Source: Pseudobutyrivibrio sp. MD2005 (GTDB taxonomy: Bacteria > Bacillota > Clostridia > Lachnospirales > Lachnospiraceae). Taken from it: a stretch of DNA of 64,000 bases. Location of the stretch: NCBI RefSeq assembly GCF_000621865.1, contig NZ_KK211358.1:124001-188000 (forward strand), given 5' to 3'. Under the pieces are notes generated by a model. The model ran no database searches and had not been told where the DNA came from. It was given only the letters and a program-made list of their open reading frames with translations. Shown piece by piece: positions 15,188 through 38,544 of this stretch; the first letter of the stretch is position 1, and each line of letters opens with the position of its first letter. The translations under genes and the position numbers were made by a program.

Positions 15188-15259
15188 CAGTTCCTAGCGG
15201 AATCGAACCGCTGTTTTCGCCGTGAGAGGGCGACGTCTTAACCGCTTGACCAAGGAACC
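15188..15259 (-). tRNA. tRNA-Glu (CTC anticodon)
   Basis: Read on the minus strand: acceptor GGTTCCT pairing with AGGAACT (a G-U end pair, as in other Firmicutes tRNA-Glu), D arm GGTCAAGCGGTTAAGAC, anticodon loop CTCTCAC giving CTC, and T arm GCGGTTCGATTCCGC. The discriminator base is G and the 3' CCA is not encoded. A promoter lies upstream at 15292-15320 and a terminator immediately after. Confidence 0.95.
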
Positions 15260-26191: not shown

Positions 26192-26271
26192 GCGGGTGTG
26201 GCGGAATTGGCAGACGCGCTAGATTTAGGTTCTAGTGGGCGACCGTGCAGGTTCAAGTCCTGTCACCCGCA
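26192..26271 (+). tRNA. tRNA-Leu (TAG anticodon)
   Basis: Acceptor GCGGGTG pairs with CACCCGC, D arm GGCGGAATTGGCAGACGCGC, anticodon arm CTAGA-TTTAGGT-TCTAG giving TAG, a variable arm typical of class II tRNAs (GGGCGACC region) and T arm GCAGGTTCAAGTCCTGT. Discriminator A; the CCA end is not encoded. Confidence 0.95.
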
Positions 26272-30930: not shown

Positions 30931-31659
30931 GTGGCAGATTCAAATATAATGCTTGACCTTCGCGATATCCATAAAAGCTTTTTTATTGGCACTCCAAATG
31001 AGTTTGAAGTTTTGCATGGTGTTAATTTCACGGTAAACAAAGGTGAATTTGTATCCATTGTAGGACAGTCTGGTTCAGGTAAATCCACACTGATGAATAT
31101 CATCGGCGCATTGGATAGACCTACATCCGGAGAATATACTCTTGATGGAGTAGATATTGAGAAGGCAAAGGATCATGAGCTTTCAGCTCTTAGAAATAAA
31201 AAAATCGGGTTCGTATTTCAGACCTACAACCTAATAGCTCGTACAAATGCGTTGAAAAATGTGGAGCTCCCTATGATGTATGCAGGAATGGGGCGTGGAG
31301 AGAGAACGGACCGTGCAAAGATGCTTCTTGAAGAAGTTGGAATGAAAGACAGAATGCATCACAATCCCGATGAGCTTTCAGGTGGTCAGAAACAACGTGT
31401 GGCTATTGCACGTGCTATGGCAAATGACCCGGCAATTATCCTTGCTGATGAGCCTACAGGTGCGTTAGATTCGGCTACAGGTAGAATGATTATGGATATT
31501 TTCCATAAGCTTCATGAAGAGCAGGGCAAGACAATCGTACTTATTACTCACTCTCCAGAATTATCACAGGAAACAGAGCGTATTATCACTCTAAAGGATG
31601 GCGATATTATCGGTCAGGCCCAGGGACACTGGGATAAAAAAGCAGGGGAGGTGGTGTAA
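30931..31659 (+). CDS. MacB-like ABC ATPase (set 1)
   Basis: 242 residues, GTG start with AAGGAGG. Walker A GQSGSGKST, Q-loop FVFQTYNLIARTNALKNVELP, signature LSGGQKQRVAIARA, Walker B IILADEPTGALD, switch His in LITHSPEL: the LolD/MacB/FtsE class. The stop codon overlaps the permease start (TAATG). Confidence 0.93.
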   Translation: MADSNIMLDLRDIHKSFFIGTPNEFEVLHGVNFTVNKGEFVSIVGQSGSGKSTLMNIIGALDRPTSGEYTLDGVDIEKAKDHELSALRNKKIGFVFQTYNLIARTNALKNVELPMMYAGMGRGERTDRAKMLLEEVGMKDRMHHNPDELSGGQKQRVAIARAMANDPAIILADEPTGALDSATGRMIMDIFHKLHEEQGKTIVLITHSPELSQETERIITLKDGDIIGQAQGHWDKKAGEVV

Positions 31660-32948
31660 TGTTATTTACAGAAAATGTCCTCGTTGCTTTAGCTGGTCTT
31701 AAAGCGAATATAATGCGTTCGCTTTTGACAATGCTTGGAATTATCATTGGTATAGCATCTGTTATTGCAATCATGACAGTTGGTAATTCTATCACTTTGA
31801 TTGTTAACACCACCATGCAGGATCTTGGTGCAAACAACCTTGAAATGGGTGTAATGCAGAAATCTGTTGATAAAGAAACTACAGATTCTGGTGCCAGCTA
31901 CGGTGCTGGATATGTTCGTGATATGACCGATCAAGATCTTATCACAGAAGACATGGTTACAGCTTTCAGACAGGAGTATCCAGATGATGTAAAATATATC
32001 ATTCGACAGGAAAGTGTTGGTGATAAGGGAACTGTCTCAAGAGGAAACAAAAATGCCAATGTAAAAATAGTTGGATATAACAATGATTATTTCCATTTCA
32101 AAGATATAAAGCTTCAAGACGGCCGTCAGTTTTTGAACCAGGATTTTGAAAATCATAAAAAGGTCTGTCTTGTAACAGATAAGCTTGTTGAAAGAGTTTT
32201 TGACGGAGATAGTGATGCTGCCCTTGGTCAGGAAATCGAGGTTAATATTTCCGGAACATATTATAGCTACTATATTGTAGGTGTATATGAGTATGTTCAG
32301 GATCAATTCTCTTTTGGTGTTTCTGACAACCCAACTACAGAATTGGTTATCCCTTATGAGACTGCAAGATATCAGAATCATAACCAAAATAAGGGTGATT
32401 ATTATTTCACTATAGTTACATCCGTCAATACAAATAATGACGAGTTCGCTACAAAAGTAAGAGACTTCTTCAATGTGAACTATTACGCTAGAAATGATGC
32501 CTATGAAGTTATGGTTATCAGTATGTCATCAATGATGGATTCCATGAATTCGATGATTGGAACAATCCAACTAGCGCTTTCAGTTATTGCAGGAATATCT
32601 CTTGTTGTTGGTGGTATCGGCGTTATGAACATAATGCTTGTATCTATCACAGAGCGTACCAAGGAAATCGGTACAAGAAAAGCGCTCGGTGCAACCAATG
32701 GCTCAATCAGATTGCAGTTCATTACAGAATCTGTTGTAATCTGTTTGATTGGTGGTGTAATAGGTATTGCCCTTGGTGTGGCTTTAGGCTTGCTTGCAGT
32801 TAAGCTTATGGGTTACTCAGGACTTGTATCAGTGGAAAGTATCATCATAGCTGTAGGTTTTTCTATGGCAATCGGTGTATTCTTTGGATACTATCCAGCC
32901 AATAAGGCTGCCAAGCTTAATCCTATCGATGCACTTCGATACGAGTAA
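31659..32948 (+). CDS. MacB-like FtsX-fold permease (set 1)
   Basis: 429 residues. N-terminal helix with the typical SLLTMLGIIIGIASVIAIMTVG, a large extracellular MacB-PCD domain (~50-290), then three C-terminal helices with GGIGVMNIMLVSITERTKEIGTRKALGATNGSI. Mechanotransmission-type permease working with the ATPase and the adaptor. Confidence 0.93.
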   Translation: MLFTENVLVALAGLKANIMRSLLTMLGIIIGIASVIAIMTVGNSITLIVNTTMQDLGANNLEMGVMQKSVDKETTDSGASYGAGYVRDMTDQDLITEDMVTAFRQEYPDDVKYIIRQESVGDKGTVSRGNKNANVKIVGYNNDYFHFKDIKLQDGRQFLNQDFENHKKVCLVTDKLVERVFDGDSDAALGQEIEVNISGTYYSYYIVGVYEYVQDQFSFGVSDNPTTELVIPYETARYQNHNQNKGDYYFTIVTSVNTNNDEFATKVRDFFNVNYYARNDAYEVMVISMSSMMDSMNSMIGTIQLALSVIAGISLVVGGIGVMNIMLVSITERTKEIGTRKALGATNGSIRLQFITESVVICLIGGVIGIALGVALGLLAVKLMGYSGLVSVESIIIAVGFSMAIGVFFGYYPANKAAKLNPIDALRYE

Positions 32949-33040
32949 AATCATCAAAATTGCTTGTTATGTGATGAGTATTTGATGGGTTATGTGAACA
33001 AAAACTGAATAATTCTGAATCCTATGTGGAATCGGTTTAC

Positions 33041-33090
33041 TTGTAAGATAAATCCTCCTATAGTATGTAAAGTCGACGTGAGTATTACAT
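33041..33090 (+). promoter_or_regulatory. Candidate promoter and inverted repeat before the second MacA-like gene
   Basis: TTGTAA - 17 bases - TATGTA (33064-33069). The -10 lies in the left arm of an inverted repeat TATGTAA / TTACATA (33064-33070 and 33084-33090). Confidence 0.45.
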
Positions 33091-33110
33091 ATTATCAGGA
33101 GGATTTTATT

Positions 33111-34641
33111 ATGTCCAAAGAGACTACGAAGGAAGAAAAAAAAGCCTGGAAAACTAAAAAGGTTTTTTGGCAAAATTGGAAGATTTATAAAGGGGCATAA
33201 ACTGCTTTGTATTATTTTACTGATATTGATTGCGGTAGGTGCATTTGTTGGCAAGAAATTCTTAGTGAAGGCTAAGCCATCAGATAAAGATGAGCAGACA
33301 ACTCTTACAACCGCAGTTGAGGTGATGGACTTGCAGTCATCGGTAAGTGTTACTGGAACACTTGCTGCAGGTCAGTCACAAAGCGTGACATCTACTGTCG
33401 CTACAGGTACTGAGGTTGCAGCAGTATACTATTCCGTTGGTGATTACGTTGAAGCAGGAGCGGTTGTTGTTGAGTTTGACGCTGATGACTACGCAACAAA
33501 GCTTGCGGAGCTAAATGCAAAGTACAACATCACTGATAAGAAGAACGCTAAAGAATTGCAGGATTATTTAGATGAAATAGAAGATTATCAGGAAGAGATG
33601 ACAGAAATTCAGGAATGGCTGGATGAATACGAAATCTATTATCTTGATGTGAAGGATGCATATGAGAATTATCAGAAGTATCCATATTCAGATGAAAAAT
33701 CCAGATATGAAACACAGGCAGCGGCTGTAAAATCTCTGTATGGATTTACTATGGAAGATTATGAATCTAAGGAGGACGAGCTAGAAGAGCTTCAAGATAA
33801 AATTGAGGAAGCTCAGTACAATTATGAGCTGGCTCAGTTGCAGCAGGAGTATGATACCACCTACACAAAGAGTGATGAGTATGAGTCGGTAACAGAAAGC
33901 CAGTCTGGAACACAGGTTGTTGCACCATTTTCTGGATATATTACAGCAATCAATGTGGAGGAAGGTAACAACTATACACAGGGTAATACCGTATTTACGA
34001 TATCGAATACAGACTCTTATGTAGTTGAGGCAACAGTTGACGAGTATGATATAGCATCTCTTTCAGAAGGGCTGTCAGCGGTTGTAAAGTTCGATGCAAC
34101 TGATGATGAAGAATTTACAGGTACACTTACATACGTTGCTGTCACATCTGATTCTACAACAACTTCATCCAGCTCATCATCTAACTCTAACTCGGGAGGA
34201 AGTAGTTCATCTAGCAGTTCCTCAGCAAGCTATGAAGTAAAAATCACACTTGATGATACAGACGATAGACTTAGAGTTGGTATGACTGCTAAAGCATCAG
34301 TAATCTTAGAATCTGCAGAAGGAGCATTTGCAGTTGCTTACGATTGCGTTGAAACTGATTCAGATGGAAATAGCTATGTTACAGCTGTGGATGATGAAGG
34401 AAATGAGACAAAGGTAACTGTCACACTTGGACTTGAAAGTGATTATTATGTACAGATTATAAGCGATGATTTATACGAAGGAATGCTTGTAAAAGCTACA
34501 GCTTCTAGCACAACCAAAAGCTCAGATGATTCAGCAGGAGATATGATGATGAATATGGGCGGTGGCCAAGGCGGAAACATGGGCGGCGGTCAAGGCGGCC
34601 CAGGCGGCGGTGGCCAGGGTGGCCCAGGTGGCGGATTCTAG
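33111..34641 (+). CDS. MacA/HlyD-type membrane fusion protein (set 2), N-terminal frameshift
   Basis: Translation should begin at ATG 33111, eight bases after AGGAGG, but that frame stops at 33200 after 29 codons. Removing one A from the run of eight A at 33136-33143 joins the start to the downstream frame and gives a ~509-residue protein with basic tail, membrane helix (LLCIILLILIAVGAFVG), lipoyl halves, coiled coil and barrel closely matching set 1. A TTG at 33226 would give 471 residues but lose most of the membrane helix and has no ribosome-binding site. The C-terminus carries Met/Gly/Gln-rich repeats (about 30 residues). The frameshift may be a sequencing error, phase variation, slippage or early decay. 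Confidence 0.8.
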
Positions 34642-34651
34642 GAGGTGTGAT

Positions 34652-35383
34652 ATGGCAGCAGGAGATATTATGTTAGATCTTCGTGATATACACAAAAGCT
34701 TTTTTATAGGTACACCTAATGAGTTCGAAGTACTTCATGGAGTTAATTTTTCAGTCCGCGAGGGTGAGTTTGTTTCAATTGTAGGTCAGTCTGGCTCAGG
34801 AAAATCTACATTGATGAACATTATTGGAGCCCTAGATAGGCCAACAAGCGGCGAATATACTTTGGACGGAGTGGATATCGAAAAAGCAAAAGATCACGAG
34901 TTATCGATTCTTAGAAATAAAAAAATCGGATTTGTTTTTCAGACTTACAATCTTATTGCCCGAACCAACGCAATCAAAAATGTTGAACTACCAATGATGT
35001 ATGCAGGTGTAGGTCGTGCAGAGCGAAACGAGCGAGCAAAGATGCTATTAGAGCAAGTGGGCATGACAAACCGAATGATTCACAATCCTGATGAATTATC
35101 AGGTGGCCAGAAACAGCGTGTGGCAATTGCCAGGGCTATGGCCAATGACCCAGCAATTATACTGGCAGATGAGCCAACAGGAGCTCTAGATTCTGCCACT
35201 GGACGTTTAATAATGGACATTTTCCATAGATTGCATGAGGAGCAGGGAAAAACAATAGTTTTAATAACCCACTCCCCAGAGTTATCGCAGGAGACAGAAC
35301 GCATAATTACTTTACGAGACGGCGACATCAAAGGGGAGACGGCTGGTCGCTGGGAAGAGATAAAGGAGGGACTTGCATGTTAA
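34652..35383 (+). CDS. MacB-like ABC ATPase (set 2)
   Basis: 243 residues from ATG 34652 (AGGAGG just before it); a longer frame reading back into the previous gene is an artefact of its Gly-rich repeats. Nearly identical to the set 1 ATPase over long stretches: DLRDIHKSFFIGTPNEFEVL, Walker A GQSGSGKST, LSGGQKQRVAIARA, ILADEPTGALDSATG. Overlaps the permease start by 7 bases. Confidence 0.93.
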   Translation: MAAGDIMLDLRDIHKSFFIGTPNEFEVLHGVNFSVREGEFVSIVGQSGSGKSTLMNIIGALDRPTSGEYTLDGVDIEKAKDHELSILRNKKIGFVFQTYNLIARTNAIKNVELPMMYAGVGRAERNERAKMLLEQVGMTNRMIHNPDELSGGQKQRVAIARAMANDPAIILADEPTGALDSATGRLIMDIFHRLHEEQGKTIVLITHSPELSQETERIITLRDGDIKGETAGRWEEIKEGLAC

Positions 35384-36663
35384 TACTTGAAAATGTCCTT
35401 CTTGCTCTAGCCGGACTGAAGTCAAATATAATGCGTTCTCTTCTGACGATGCTTGGAATTATTATTGGTATAGCCTCAGTTATTGCAATTATGACTGTTG
35501 GTAATTCTATCACCGTAATGGTAAACACCCAGATGCAGGAGATGGGGGCTAACAACCTTACTGTAGGTGTTTCAGCTAAAAGTACCTCTGAGGAGACTAC
35601 TTCATCTGGTTTGCACTTTGGAGCCGGCAACAGGCGAACCATGGATACAGATGACTATATGACAGATGATATGCTTGATTCATTTTTAGAAGAGTATGGC
35701 AGTAACGTCAAATACACCTTGCTAGAATCTTCCGTAGGTTCCGGAACAGCCATCGATGGAGATTTATATGCCTATGTTAACATCATCGGCTACAACCAGG
35801 ACTACATGGATTACACTGATTTGGATATGCTTGCAGGACGTTCATTTATCGACAAGGACTATGAGAATGCCCAAAAGGTGTGTATTGTATCCGACTACTT
35901 TGTTAACAACATGTTTGATGGTGACGCCAATGCTGCTCTTGGCTCTGCAGTGGAGATAAGCATTAGTGGAAAATACTACACTTATTACATAGTAGGTGTG
36001 TATCAGTATGATGCCAGCACCTGGTCTAGCGATTCAACAGAAGATACCACTACAGATTTTTATATTCCATTTGATACAGCACGCAACCAGCTTCACACTT
36101 CAAATGAAGGCTATTCTAGCATCACCTTAGTTACTACAATCGACACAGATTCGGAAGCATTTGCCGATACAGTGGAAAGCTACTTTAACACCATGTTTTA
36201 TTCAAACAACGAGGACTACGAGGTGACTGTTACAAGCATGGCCAGCATGATTGAATCAATGACTACCATGATAGGCACCATAGAACTGGCCCTTGCCATT
36301 ATCGCAGGTATATCCCTTGTAGTCGGTGGTATAGGCGTTATGAACATTATGCTTGTATCTATCACAGAACGTACAAAGGAAATAGGAACCAGAAAAGCTC
36401 TTGGTGCCACAAACGGTTCAATCCGTTTGCAGTTTATTACTGAATCCGTAGTAATCTGCATAATGGGTGGCCTAATAGGCATAATCTTTGGTGTAGCTCT
36501 TGGTTCCATTGCTGCAACCTACATGGGATATTCAGCATCAGTATCTGTCATCGCCATTGTGATAGCCGTAGGCTTCTCCATGGCCATCGGAGTCTTCTTT
36601 GGATACTACCCAGCTAACAAGGCCGCAAAGCTCAACCCAATCGAAGCCCTCCGCTACGAATAA
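35377..36663 (+). CDS. MacB-like FtsX-fold permease (set 2)
   Basis: 428 residues. N- and C-terminal membrane blocks almost identical to set 1 (SLLTMLGIIIGIASVIAIMTVG; GGIGVMNIMLVSITERTKEI). The extracellular domain diverges strongly (for example TSSGLHFGAGNRRTMDTDDYM), suggesting the two sets share the engine but recognise different substrates or adaptors. Likely a tandem duplication. Confidence 0.93.
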   Translation: MLILENVLLALAGLKSNIMRSLLTMLGIIIGIASVIAIMTVGNSITVMVNTQMQEMGANNLTVGVSAKSTSEETTSSGLHFGAGNRRTMDTDDYMTDDMLDSFLEEYGSNVKYTLLESSVGSGTAIDGDLYAYVNIIGYNQDYMDYTDLDMLAGRSFIDKDYENAQKVCIVSDYFVNNMFDGDANAALGSAVEISISGKYYTYYIVGVYQYDASTWSSDSTEDTTTDFYIPFDTARNQLHTSNEGYSSITLVTTIDTDSEAFADTVESYFNTMFYSNNEDYEVTVTSMASMIESMTTMIGTIELALAIIAGISLVVGGIGVMNIMLVSITERTKEIGTRKALGATNGSIRLQFITESVVICIMGGLIGIIFGVALGSIAATYMGYSASVSVIAIVIAVGFSMAIGVFFGYYPANKAAKLNPIEALRYE

Positions 36664-37322
36664 AATTGTGCCATTCACAGCTGTGTCTGTTGGGCTCCGC
36701 CCCCTCATGGATGCCGTGGCCCACCCTCACCCGTGCCAGGCTGACCGCCCACTCTTTGCGCATTGCAAGAATATTGTGTTTTTCTAATGGGCCATTTATG
36801 CATCTTTAATTTACATGTGTCTTTTGCAGGCCTGTACAATTTTGAAAAAGGTTTTTGGGTGGCGGACACACAGCTTAATACTATTTGTACTTCTTAGGCT
36901 GAAGGGGACTTGGTTGATTTTGGAGCGAGCTTAGTAACATAAAAGCAGGTTTTGCAATATATAGGTATGCGCTGCCATGGACGGCAGCGCAAGTGGTCAC
37001 TTAAAACACGATGTTGAATGTGCCACGGTACCTATATATGCAAAACCTGCTTTGTCATGTTACTTAGCAAGCGGAATATGAAACCAAGTCCCCTCAGCCT
37101 GAGAAGTACATAAAAAGCTCCAGTGTCCGCCACCTGAAAAACATTTTTCAAAATGGTTCATTCCGCAACAAGACACATGTGCGATGCATAAATTTGGCCC
37201 ATAAGAAAAACAGCTATATTCGCAAAATCACGCAAAGAGTGGGCGGTCAGCCTAGCACGGGTGGTGGGCCGCGGCATCCATGAGGGGGCGGGCTGTTTTA
37301 TAATCGCTGTGAATGGCAACAA
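36664..37322. repeat. Long imperfect palindrome, about 650 bp, non-coding
   Basis: The 741-base gap between the second MacB-like permease and the AI-2E-family gene is almost wholly one inverted repeat. Left arm about 36665-36967, right arm about 37026-37321, with many perfect blocks (GCCATTCACAGC with GCTGTGAATGGC; CCCCCTCATGGATGCC; GGCTGACCGCCCACTCTTTG) separated by small mismatches and indels. The centre holds its own perfect hairpin TGCGCTGCC / GGCAGCGCA (36968-36976, 36983-36991) and a GTGG/CCAC pair. I see no open frame with gene-like features and no flanking target duplication. It could be a large structured RNA, a dead or non-autonomous mobile element, or a two-sided transcription barrier. 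Confidence 0.9.
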
Positions 37323-37407
37323 TTTAACATTTTTTTAAGAATTTTGACCTTGCTTTTGCGAGGTCTTTTTGACATATTAGAAATAGATAGACATGTGGAG
37401 GTGAATG

Positions 37408-38544
37408 ATGAGAAACATAAAGAATAAGCCTTGGTATTCTCTTACAGTATCGATATGTATAGGAGTTATTTTGTTTGTGGTGCTATTAAGGTTTTCTAGC
37501 GTTTTATCTGCAGTGGGAACCTTTTTGGGGTTTTTCTCAACTATATTTTTGGGCGCTATTATTGCGTATATTATTAATCCACTGGCTATGTTTTATAGAC
37601 GGAAGATTTTTGGAAAGCTGAAGAATGAGAAGCTGAAGGCTACATTTGGGAATACACTAGCTTTTATGACGGTGATTGCCTTTTTGATGATGGTATTGCT
37701 TCTTGTGGTTCCACAGCTTGTGGATAGTATAAGTATGTTTGCGAAGAATTTTAATGGGTATGTAAAGAGCCTTGAAAAGACTTTGGAAATCATAGGGATG
37801 TCATCAGTTGTAGATTTAGATGATTTAATATCTTCATCTACAGAGATTCTTGATTACATGGCAACTTACGTGACAGATAATATGGGCACAATACTTTCAA
37901 CTACAGCAAATATTGGCTCATCTATGGGGCATTTCTTTATAGCGCTGCTGTTGTCTATGTATTTCTTGGCAGGCAAAGATAATCTTAAGAAGGGTGGAGC
38001 AAGATTTTTAAAGGCTGTATTTAAAGAGAATTATCCAGAGGTTAGACATTTCATAAAAAGAAGTGATGAGATATTAAATTGCTATATCGTTTTTAATCTT
38101 ATTGATGCCATTATTGTAGGTATCGTAAATGCGATATTCATGACGGTGATGGGAATGCCTTATGTGGGATTGGTATCCATTATCGTTGCGCTTACAAATA
38201 TCATTCCAACCTTCGGACCATTTGTTGGAGGCGCAATTGGGGCATTTTTCCTATTATTGGTTGAGCCTTGGTATGCTGCAGCATTTTTGATTTTCGTATT
38301 AGTGCTTCAGACTATAGATGGCTATATTTTAAAGCCAAAGTTATTTGGAGATTCTCTTGGAGTATCAGGGCTATGGATTTTGATTGGCGTGGTAGCCTTG
38401 GGAAGTATGTTTGGTATGATAGGCGTTTTGCTTGCAATACCGGGAGTGGCTATTTTAGATATGGTTTACCATGAATATGTTTTAGCTTTTCTAGAAAGAG
38501 AAGATGTTGAAGAAGTAGAAGAAGACATAAAAAAAGAGGATTAA
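37408..38544 (+). CDS. AI-2E-family (PerM/YtvI-like) membrane transporter
   Basis: About 378 residues; ATG 37408 is spaced best from GGAGGTG, though ATG 37405 is adjacent. Seven to eight helices with a soluble loop in the middle, and the family blocks VGIVNAIFMTVMGMPYVGLVSIIVALTNIIPTFGPFVGG and LGVSGLWILIGVVALGSMFGMIGVLLAIPG. Family members include autoinducer-2 exporters and Na+/H+ antiporters; specific function cannot be assigned. Acidic C-terminal tail (EDVEEVEEDIKKED). Convergent with nth, overlapping by 4 bases. Confidence 0.88.
   Translation: MRNIKNKPWYSLTVSICIGVILFVVLLRFSSVLSAVGTFLGFFSTIFLGAIIAYIINPLAMFYRRKIFGKLKNEKLKATFGNTLAFMTVIAFLMMVLLLVVPQLVDSISMFAKNFNGYVKSLEKTLEIIGMSSVVDLDDLISSSTEILDYMATYVTDNMGTILSTTANIGSSMGHFFIALLLSMYFLAGKDNLKKGGARFLKAVFKENYPEVRHFIKRSDEILNCYIVFNLIDAIIVGIVNAIFMTVMGMPYVGLVSIIVALTNIIPTFGPFVGGAIGAFFLLLVEPWYAAAFLIFVLVLQTIDGYILKPKLFGDSLGVSGLWILIGVVALGSMFGMIGVLLAIPGVAILDMVYHEYVLAFLEREDVEEVEEDIKKED

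Follow-up and report, generated by a model that had tools for sequence, protein, structure and literature searches.

What is the long palindrome that fills an intergenic gap in the genome of Pseudobutyrivibrio sp. MD2005, and what keeps its arms complementary? We have studied this in a 64,000-nucleotide stretch of the genome, termed the window, whose numbering is used for all positions below.

A 654-bp Palindrome with a Known RNA Motif at Its Centre

A search of the window for inverted repeats identified a palindrome of 654 bp from tip to tip, at 36667-37320. The arms and coordinates agree with those given in an earlier note on this DNA: nine nested inverted-repeat pairs, 74-100% complementary, share one centre, the outermost being 36661-36681/37306-37326 and the innermost 36942-36956/37039-37053. 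As RNA, 36667-37320 is calculated to fold with −414 kcal/mol, compared with −198 ± 6.7 kcal/mol for 20 shuffled sequences (z = −32). The palindrome is genuine, and far beyond chance. The opposite strand folds to −411 kcal/mol and is thus of about equal stability. A perfect hairpin noticed earlier at the centre is indeed present, as GCGCTGCC-ATGGAC-GGCAGCGC. The features of the locus are as follows.

36667-37320, + strand: whole element, 654 bp; tips located, inverted repeats
36667-36680, + strand: left terminal inverted repeat TGTGCCATTCACAG, 3 mismatches to GTTACCATTCACAG
37307-37320, − strand: right terminal inverted repeat CTGTGAATGGCAAC, 1 mismatch
36659-36666, no strand: left flank AATAAAAT, compared with AATTTAAC at 37321-37328, 5/8 matching; possible degenerate 8-bp target duplication
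36697-36757, + strand: left outer stem, pairing with the right one at 97% complementarity in its main blocks
36758-37235, + strand: core common to other copies in the genome, up to 96% identical
36918-37079, + strand: apex, TwoAYGGAY RNA (RF01731), covariance-model match
36977-36982, + strand: AUGGAC hairpin loop (CsrA-type GGA loop), from sequence and copy comparison
37006-37014, + strand: second loop ACACGAUGU, without GGA in the window copy, from sequence and copy comparison
37234-37291, + strand: right outer stem, partner of 36697-36757, from inverted-repeat and genome searches
37346-37365, + strand: terminator-like hairpin ending in a T tail, on the downstream side of the element, from a scan

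An ABC-permease-like ORF occupies 35377-36663, and the element follows its stop codon (36661-36663) after three bases; the next ORF starts at 37405, 84 bases past the end of the element. The position of the terminator-like hairpin just past the element suggests that the latter was inserted between the upstream gene and its terminator. There are three terminator-like sites in 36400-37600, where 1.7 are expected from shuffles. The ORF list of the window contains no transposase ORF in the hairpin element. Upstream, 31659-36663 holds a pair of similar ABC-permease-like ORFs, of 429 and 428 aa, around membrane-fusion-like and ATPase-like ORFs, a set that by its appearance we take to resemble a MacB-like cluster. 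The window also contains two tRNA genes, at 15188-15259 (− strand) and 26192-26271 (+ strand).

The earlier note knew of no named family that fits. However, the centre matches the TwoAYGGAY family over the full length of the covariance model (1-168 of 168) with 79.2 bits, against a gathering score of 43. One paper counts TwoAYGGAY among probable RNAs, from gut, gamma-Proteobacteria and Clostridiales (PMC2864571), and another describes it as a family whose function is unknown and as a candidate for an sRNA that binds CsrA (PMC4333381); the accessible portions of these two papers make no mention of mobility. GGA hairpin loops are a trait of the family; in the window copy the first loop is AUGGAC, and the second, ACACGAUGU, lacks GGA. 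Since the centre is itself a known structured-RNA family, an RNA role is possible, and it is for the apex that it is best supported.

Copies in the Genome and Beyond

A covariance-model search of the same genome gave 49 matches to RF01731. These were taken with their flanks, one of them stopping at a contig end and one running into N, and the arms were extended outward from the motif; they reach at least 200 bp in 43 of the 49. In other copies the core, of ~476 bp, reaches up to 96% identity. All 49 carry a [CT]A[TCA]GGA[CT]G-type string in the apex, and the second loop is of ACAGGACGT type in 11, of ACACGATGT type in 31 and of another type in 7. Rough ORF calling found no ORF spanning any of the 49. 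Six of the RF01731 copies (L095, L097, L114, L118, L119 and L120) differ in their ends and have arms that hardly resemble the window core, so several subfamilies exist side by side in one genome.

The motif is present in 27 of 29 genomes of the genus, with 0-49 copies each; one single-contig genome (G001) has none. Among 38 stretches of named records that contain its 5′ segment, 31 are from Pseudobutyrivibrio, one is from Butyrivibrio fibrisolvens and six are from unrelated bacteria, probably by chance; the contigs of P. xylanivorans DSM 14809 carry this segment. In a phylum sample of 398 genomes, with few candidates scored per genome, 51 match RF01731 at E ≤ 0.001, and 34 score above the gathering score. 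Taking the best match of each genome in other genera (19 loci), the extra arms are 23-85 bp long in 16 and extend further, with weak scores, in 3. Here, by contrast, the motif sits on arms of 200-320 bp that carry terminal repeats and target duplications. As far as a single locus from each of these other genomes can tell, the giant hairpin seems to have developed in this genus.

An assembly artefact was rejected, as many species carry the element, including genomes assembled into 2-3 contigs (10 matches in G003 and 8 in G028). Spread by phages or plasmids was likewise rejected, the core having no match in either collection.

Pairing and Divergence of the Outer Stem

The core is conserved and the outer stems are not. 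Column identity in 21 aligned copies of the tip-bounded family is ~0.9 over most of the core (0.69 in one bin) and falls to 0.39-0.55 in the outer stems. Into the left outer stem of the window copy the genome search aligned just two other copies, from ~36718 and ~36725, and past ~37238 in the right one it aligned none. Despite this diversity the outer stems are well paired. With six of the 49 copies omitted for short or cut arms, and gapped positions left out, 1694 of 1892 aligned pairs (45 positions, 43 copies) are Watson-Crick. In bin-wise counts, from which copies under the arm thresholds were omitted, the 160-200-nt bin is the best paired (92% in this genome and 96% in relatives of the genus), topped only by a bin of three positions. 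For 38 of 43 copies the best partner of the left arm is its own right arm; within the tip-bounded family this holds for 16 of 21. The outer stem is 62% G+C, compared with 39% in the flanks; the left arm has the C and the right arm the G.

Such pairing could be maintained if the element were transcribed as a functional rod of 650 nt under selection for RNA pairing. The earlier note raised this possibility, pointing to several differences between the arms that keep a G-U pair and to others that do not. There are six G-T pairs of this kind in the window copy, together with four A-C pairs, 21 other mismatches and 27 gap positions. RNA selection on pairing would favour G-U on the transcribed strand, and over the apex there is such a preference, with 40 G-U and 14 A-C pairs among 76 distinct sequences, although 14 of the 40 fall in one column pair. 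The extreme stability of the fold (−414 kcal/mol), the known RNA family at the centre and the position of the window copy, which has a stop codon before it and a terminator-like site after it and is perhaps read as a 3′ UTR, are all in keeping with a long RNA. The bias is absent from the outer stem, however, with 44 G-T and 53 A-C mismatches in 43 copies and 11 of each in relatives of the genus, and from the arms as a whole (294 against 308 in this genome, 150 against 188 in the genus). The pairing of the outer stem is therefore not explained by RNA selection. Moreover, the two strands are about equally stable, a consensus scan found no sigma-70-like site inside the element, and the orientation relative to neighbouring genes is even: both neighbours are co-oriented with the element at 16 copies and both opposed at 16, with 12 convergent, 4 divergent and 1 unassigned. 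We consider a long functional RNA improbable, and the proposed 650-nt rod is not supported by these data.

Terminal Repeats, Target Duplications, and a Putative Mobilizer

The tips GTTACCATTCACAG...CTGTGAATGGTAAC bound 23 of the 49 copies, allowing up to 4 mismatches per tip and a spacing of 480-700 bp; one locus with a negative length (L099) was dropped as an artefact. The exact tip motif GTTACYATTCACAG occurs 21 times in the genome, compared with 0 for a reversed control pattern; once two mismatches are allowed, the motif is no commoner than the control (94 against 105). The 8 bases outside the tips match at 8/8 positions in four of the 23 copies and at 7/8 in one, and five such copies arose in 0 of 20,000 permutations of flank partners. 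The mean flank match peaks at a length of 8 (0.51), compared with 0.24-0.41 at lengths 4-7 and 9-12. The earlier view that there is no flanking duplication thus does not hold family-wide, and in the window copy itself the flanks match at 5 of 8 positions. A search for multiple copies with target duplications had been suggested as a check, and it yielded 49 copies, with perfect 8-bp duplications in four and a 7/8 duplication in one. One further pair of tips (L140, 631 bp, C2:302273-302903) has neither an RF01731 match at the gathering score nor long arms, and was set aside as probably due to chance.

Which transposase might act on these ends? One candidate was found in another genome of the genus. 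G021 carries an element of 2.96 kb (L335:1279-4241, on G021:C31) with tips ATTACTATTCACAG/CTGTGAATAGTAAC and a perfect 8-bp duplication, CGCATAAA. Its ORFs encode 135 aa, 581 aa (an open transposase frame) and 182 aa, the last without a Pfam match. The transposase matches the IS66 DDE domain (PF03050, 8.3e-18), and is a distant match to the IS66 model. IS66 elements make 8-bp target duplications, and their layout is one of three genes, tnpA-tnpB-tnpC. Of 37 PF03050 places listed in the genus, we searched eight stretches for the tips, allowing 3 mismatches at most, and a pair was found only at the G021 element; two G028 stretches, the two stretches at the IS66 of the MD2005 genome and two others gave none, and one gave a single hit with 3 mismatches. 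The single PF03050 match in the MD2005 genome is not bounded by such tips. The sole other transposase family searched was the ISL3 type (PF01610); this had no match in the MD2005 genome, and an ISL3 mobilizer was rejected on that ground.

The element has several of the features by which MITEs are recognized: it is multi-copy and non-coding, and has terminal inverted repeats and target duplications of 8 bp. No autonomous transposon with these ends was found in the MD2005 genome, nearly the same ends occurring on the G021 transposon only. Judged from these sequence features, it is a MITE-like, mobile element. The earlier note had reasoned that terminally duplicated copies would make this a dead mobile element. 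Such copies exist and mobility is borne out, but deadness is not supported, because four copies keep perfect 8-bp duplications.

Could the tips and the flank matches instead be remnants, and the copies recombination relics of an old repeat family that did not spread by transposition? Clear target duplications are lacking in 18 of the 23 tip-bounded copies, no matching transposase was seen in the MD2005 genome, and many of the 49 copies have other ends, all of which would fit such relics. Against this, exact 8-bp duplications abut the tips in four copies, the flanking sequences differ from copy to copy, and near-identical tips occur both on the IS66-type element, with its duplication, and on a second element of ~192 bp. 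We regard this explanation as quite unlikely.

The second element, of 192-195 bp with tips GTTACTATTCACAG, was observed at L305:1501-1692 and at L309, L313, L319, L320, L325 and L329, in other genomes of the genus. The L305 copy has a branched, almost fully paired fold of −89 kcal/mol. By eye, the loops of L305, L309 and L329 are alike, and their stems differ yet are complementary. No Rfam match was found in the five of these seven copies that were searched. This element has the same design principle with other cargo.

Exchanges at Orthologous Sites in Sister Species

We compared eleven pairs of orthologous loci between sister species; one of these (L185/L193) could be followed on one side only. 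In L179/L189 the interior (~520 bp) is inverted in place, with 36-40 of 40 bases per window matching in reverse only and the flanks matching forward. In L186/L192 most of the arms match reversed and the apex matches forward; exchanges at two levels are therefore needed. In L205/L214 the arms are kept and ~110 nt of apex has been replaced, and in L199/L202 the outer arms are kept and the inner arms and apex have been replaced; by eye, the other version keeps the GGA strings on the same strand in both cases. The remaining seven pairs exhibit no inversion of this kind and no apex replacement, a single 40-nt window of L212/L213 matching better reversed. Within the MD2005 genome the arms of L113 are flipped relative to the apex and L074 and L079 have one flipped segment, i.e., 3 of 43 copies, five of which are uninformative; 3 of 26 genus copies also have one flipped segment. 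Copies under the arm thresholds were omitted from these counts. Of the earlier suggestions, that of a cruciform-prone or replication-sensitive DNA site fits these inversions and apex replacements better than does an RNA rod.

Base-pair changes were counted in eight orthologue pairs. The counts were 1306 for pairs that stayed unchanged, 154 for changes in a single arm, 12 for paired changes and 2 for paired indels, along with 62 arm-exchanged columns, 304 positions unpaired in both and 40 others. About 1.4 paired changes would be expected by chance. Correction between the arms is real but slow, since single-arm changes far exceed paired changes and paired indels.

The cores of L206 and L207 are 99.2% identical (that of L207 is 96.3% identical to its orthologue L217), and by eye their outer stems seem unrelated. 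This would be expected if outer stems were rewritten at each transposition, e.g., by hairpin-primed synthesis from one arm, but we find that very unlikely, because the five copies with the best target duplications (L090, L102, L108, L109 and L111) by eye have most of the outer stem in common and differ mainly in ~10-14 bp mid-stem, and stems are thus largely inherited on transposition.

Association with csrA

The binding of CsrA by TwoAYGGAY has been proposed before, in the accessible portion of PMC4333381. The apex of the element may bind CsrA. Within the phylum sample csrA is present in 49 of the 51 motif genomes, compared with 236 of the 347 others (Fisher p = 4e-6, uncorrected for kinship); G210 and G264 are the motif genomes that lack it. 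With the strict set, scoring over the gathering score, the figures are 33 of 34 and 252 of 364 (p = 2e-4, likewise uncorrected for kinship). The case for a role with CsrA is weaker because 31 of the 49 copies in the MD2005 genome have a second loop without GGA, and because the scan of the element revealed no promoter-like site.

This genome has one csrA gene, and a TwoAYGGAY copy with arms of ~290 bp lies ~370 bp downstream of it (L114:7001-7160; G000:C1:230041-230200). It stands between csrA and ORFs resembling FlaG, FliD and FliS, names that we assume from their appearance. We rejected a conserved csrA neighbourhood and take this position to be a chance insertion: the motif is absent from 29 other csrA loci in 27 other genomes of the genus, with flanks of ~1.5 kb where the contig allows.

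Discussion

We describe a MITE-like element that bears a TwoAYGGAY apex on stems that are modular, hypervariable and matched to themselves. We favour, with a probability of about 0.7, a reading in which it is non-autonomous, mobilized in trans by an IS66-type transposase, built of concentric modules and kept complementary in its stem mainly at the level of DNA. Transposition would proceed by way of the short terminal repeats and leave 8-bp duplications, the transposase probably being supplied in trans, as the near-identical ends of the G021 element suggest. From the outside in, the hairpin modules would be the tips, a variable GC-rich outer stem, a conserved core stem and the TwoAYGGAY apex. 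The inversions were seen directly; the arms may swap by recombination or by template switching during replication, and this exchange would keep them alike over long times. Apex replacement was also seen, and points to a process in which interior hairpins are replaced as units across the centre by conversion between copies; the core stem may be replaced in the same way. Each copy would thereby keep its own matched outer arms around a common core. Unit replacement fits L206 and L207, because their cores are so alike and their outer stems seem unrelated. The apex would be derived from a stand-alone RNA, probably CsrA-binding, in line with the earlier proposal and with the co-occurrence described above.

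Bacterial MITEs such as the Correia elements are similar in being non-coding and intergenic, with terminal repeats, target duplications and tens of copies, and Correia elements are reported to invert in the accessible text of PMC10969869. Unlike them, the present element measures ~600 bp and pairs with itself almost throughout; its stems are hypervariable but matched, and its apex is a structured RNA. It has nearly the same tips as the G021 IS66-type element and the same length of duplication as IS66-family insertion sequences, but in contrast to these it has no transposase ORF. The homogenization of arms together with inversion of the spacer recalls quasipalindrome template-switch mutation. 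In yeast both are outcomes of template switching (PMC8604942), which can maintain hairpin stems (PMC8794818), as far as the accessible parts of these papers go; the former deals there with short inverted repeats, whereas here the arms are ~230 bp, multi-copy and mobile. Searches on TwoAYGGAY, on Pseudobutyrivibrio/Butyrivibrio inverted repeats, on MITE with CsrA and on IS66 with MITE, covering few subscription journals, found no description of the element.

Paired changes in a stem are usually taken as proof of RNA function. The present elements form a large natural set of diverse, well-paired stems in which inversions are visible and the stem bears no sign of RNA selection, a warning that DNA exchange, too, can give rise to stem covariation. 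An orphan Rfam family also gains a genomic setting, mobile in one genus and short-armed in most other genera sampled, and a co-occurrence test has been added to its proposed link with CsrA.

A more far-reaching reading, which we hold to be doubtful, is that a transposon family captured a regulatory RNA that binds CsrA and spreads it as decoys on a hairpin of interchangeable concentric modules, with stems that diverge and stay matched through unit exchange and arm swaps. If so, CsrA, a global regulator, could be tuned by copy number (0-49 per genome), and in this family bacterial palindrome recombination would have left a natural record.
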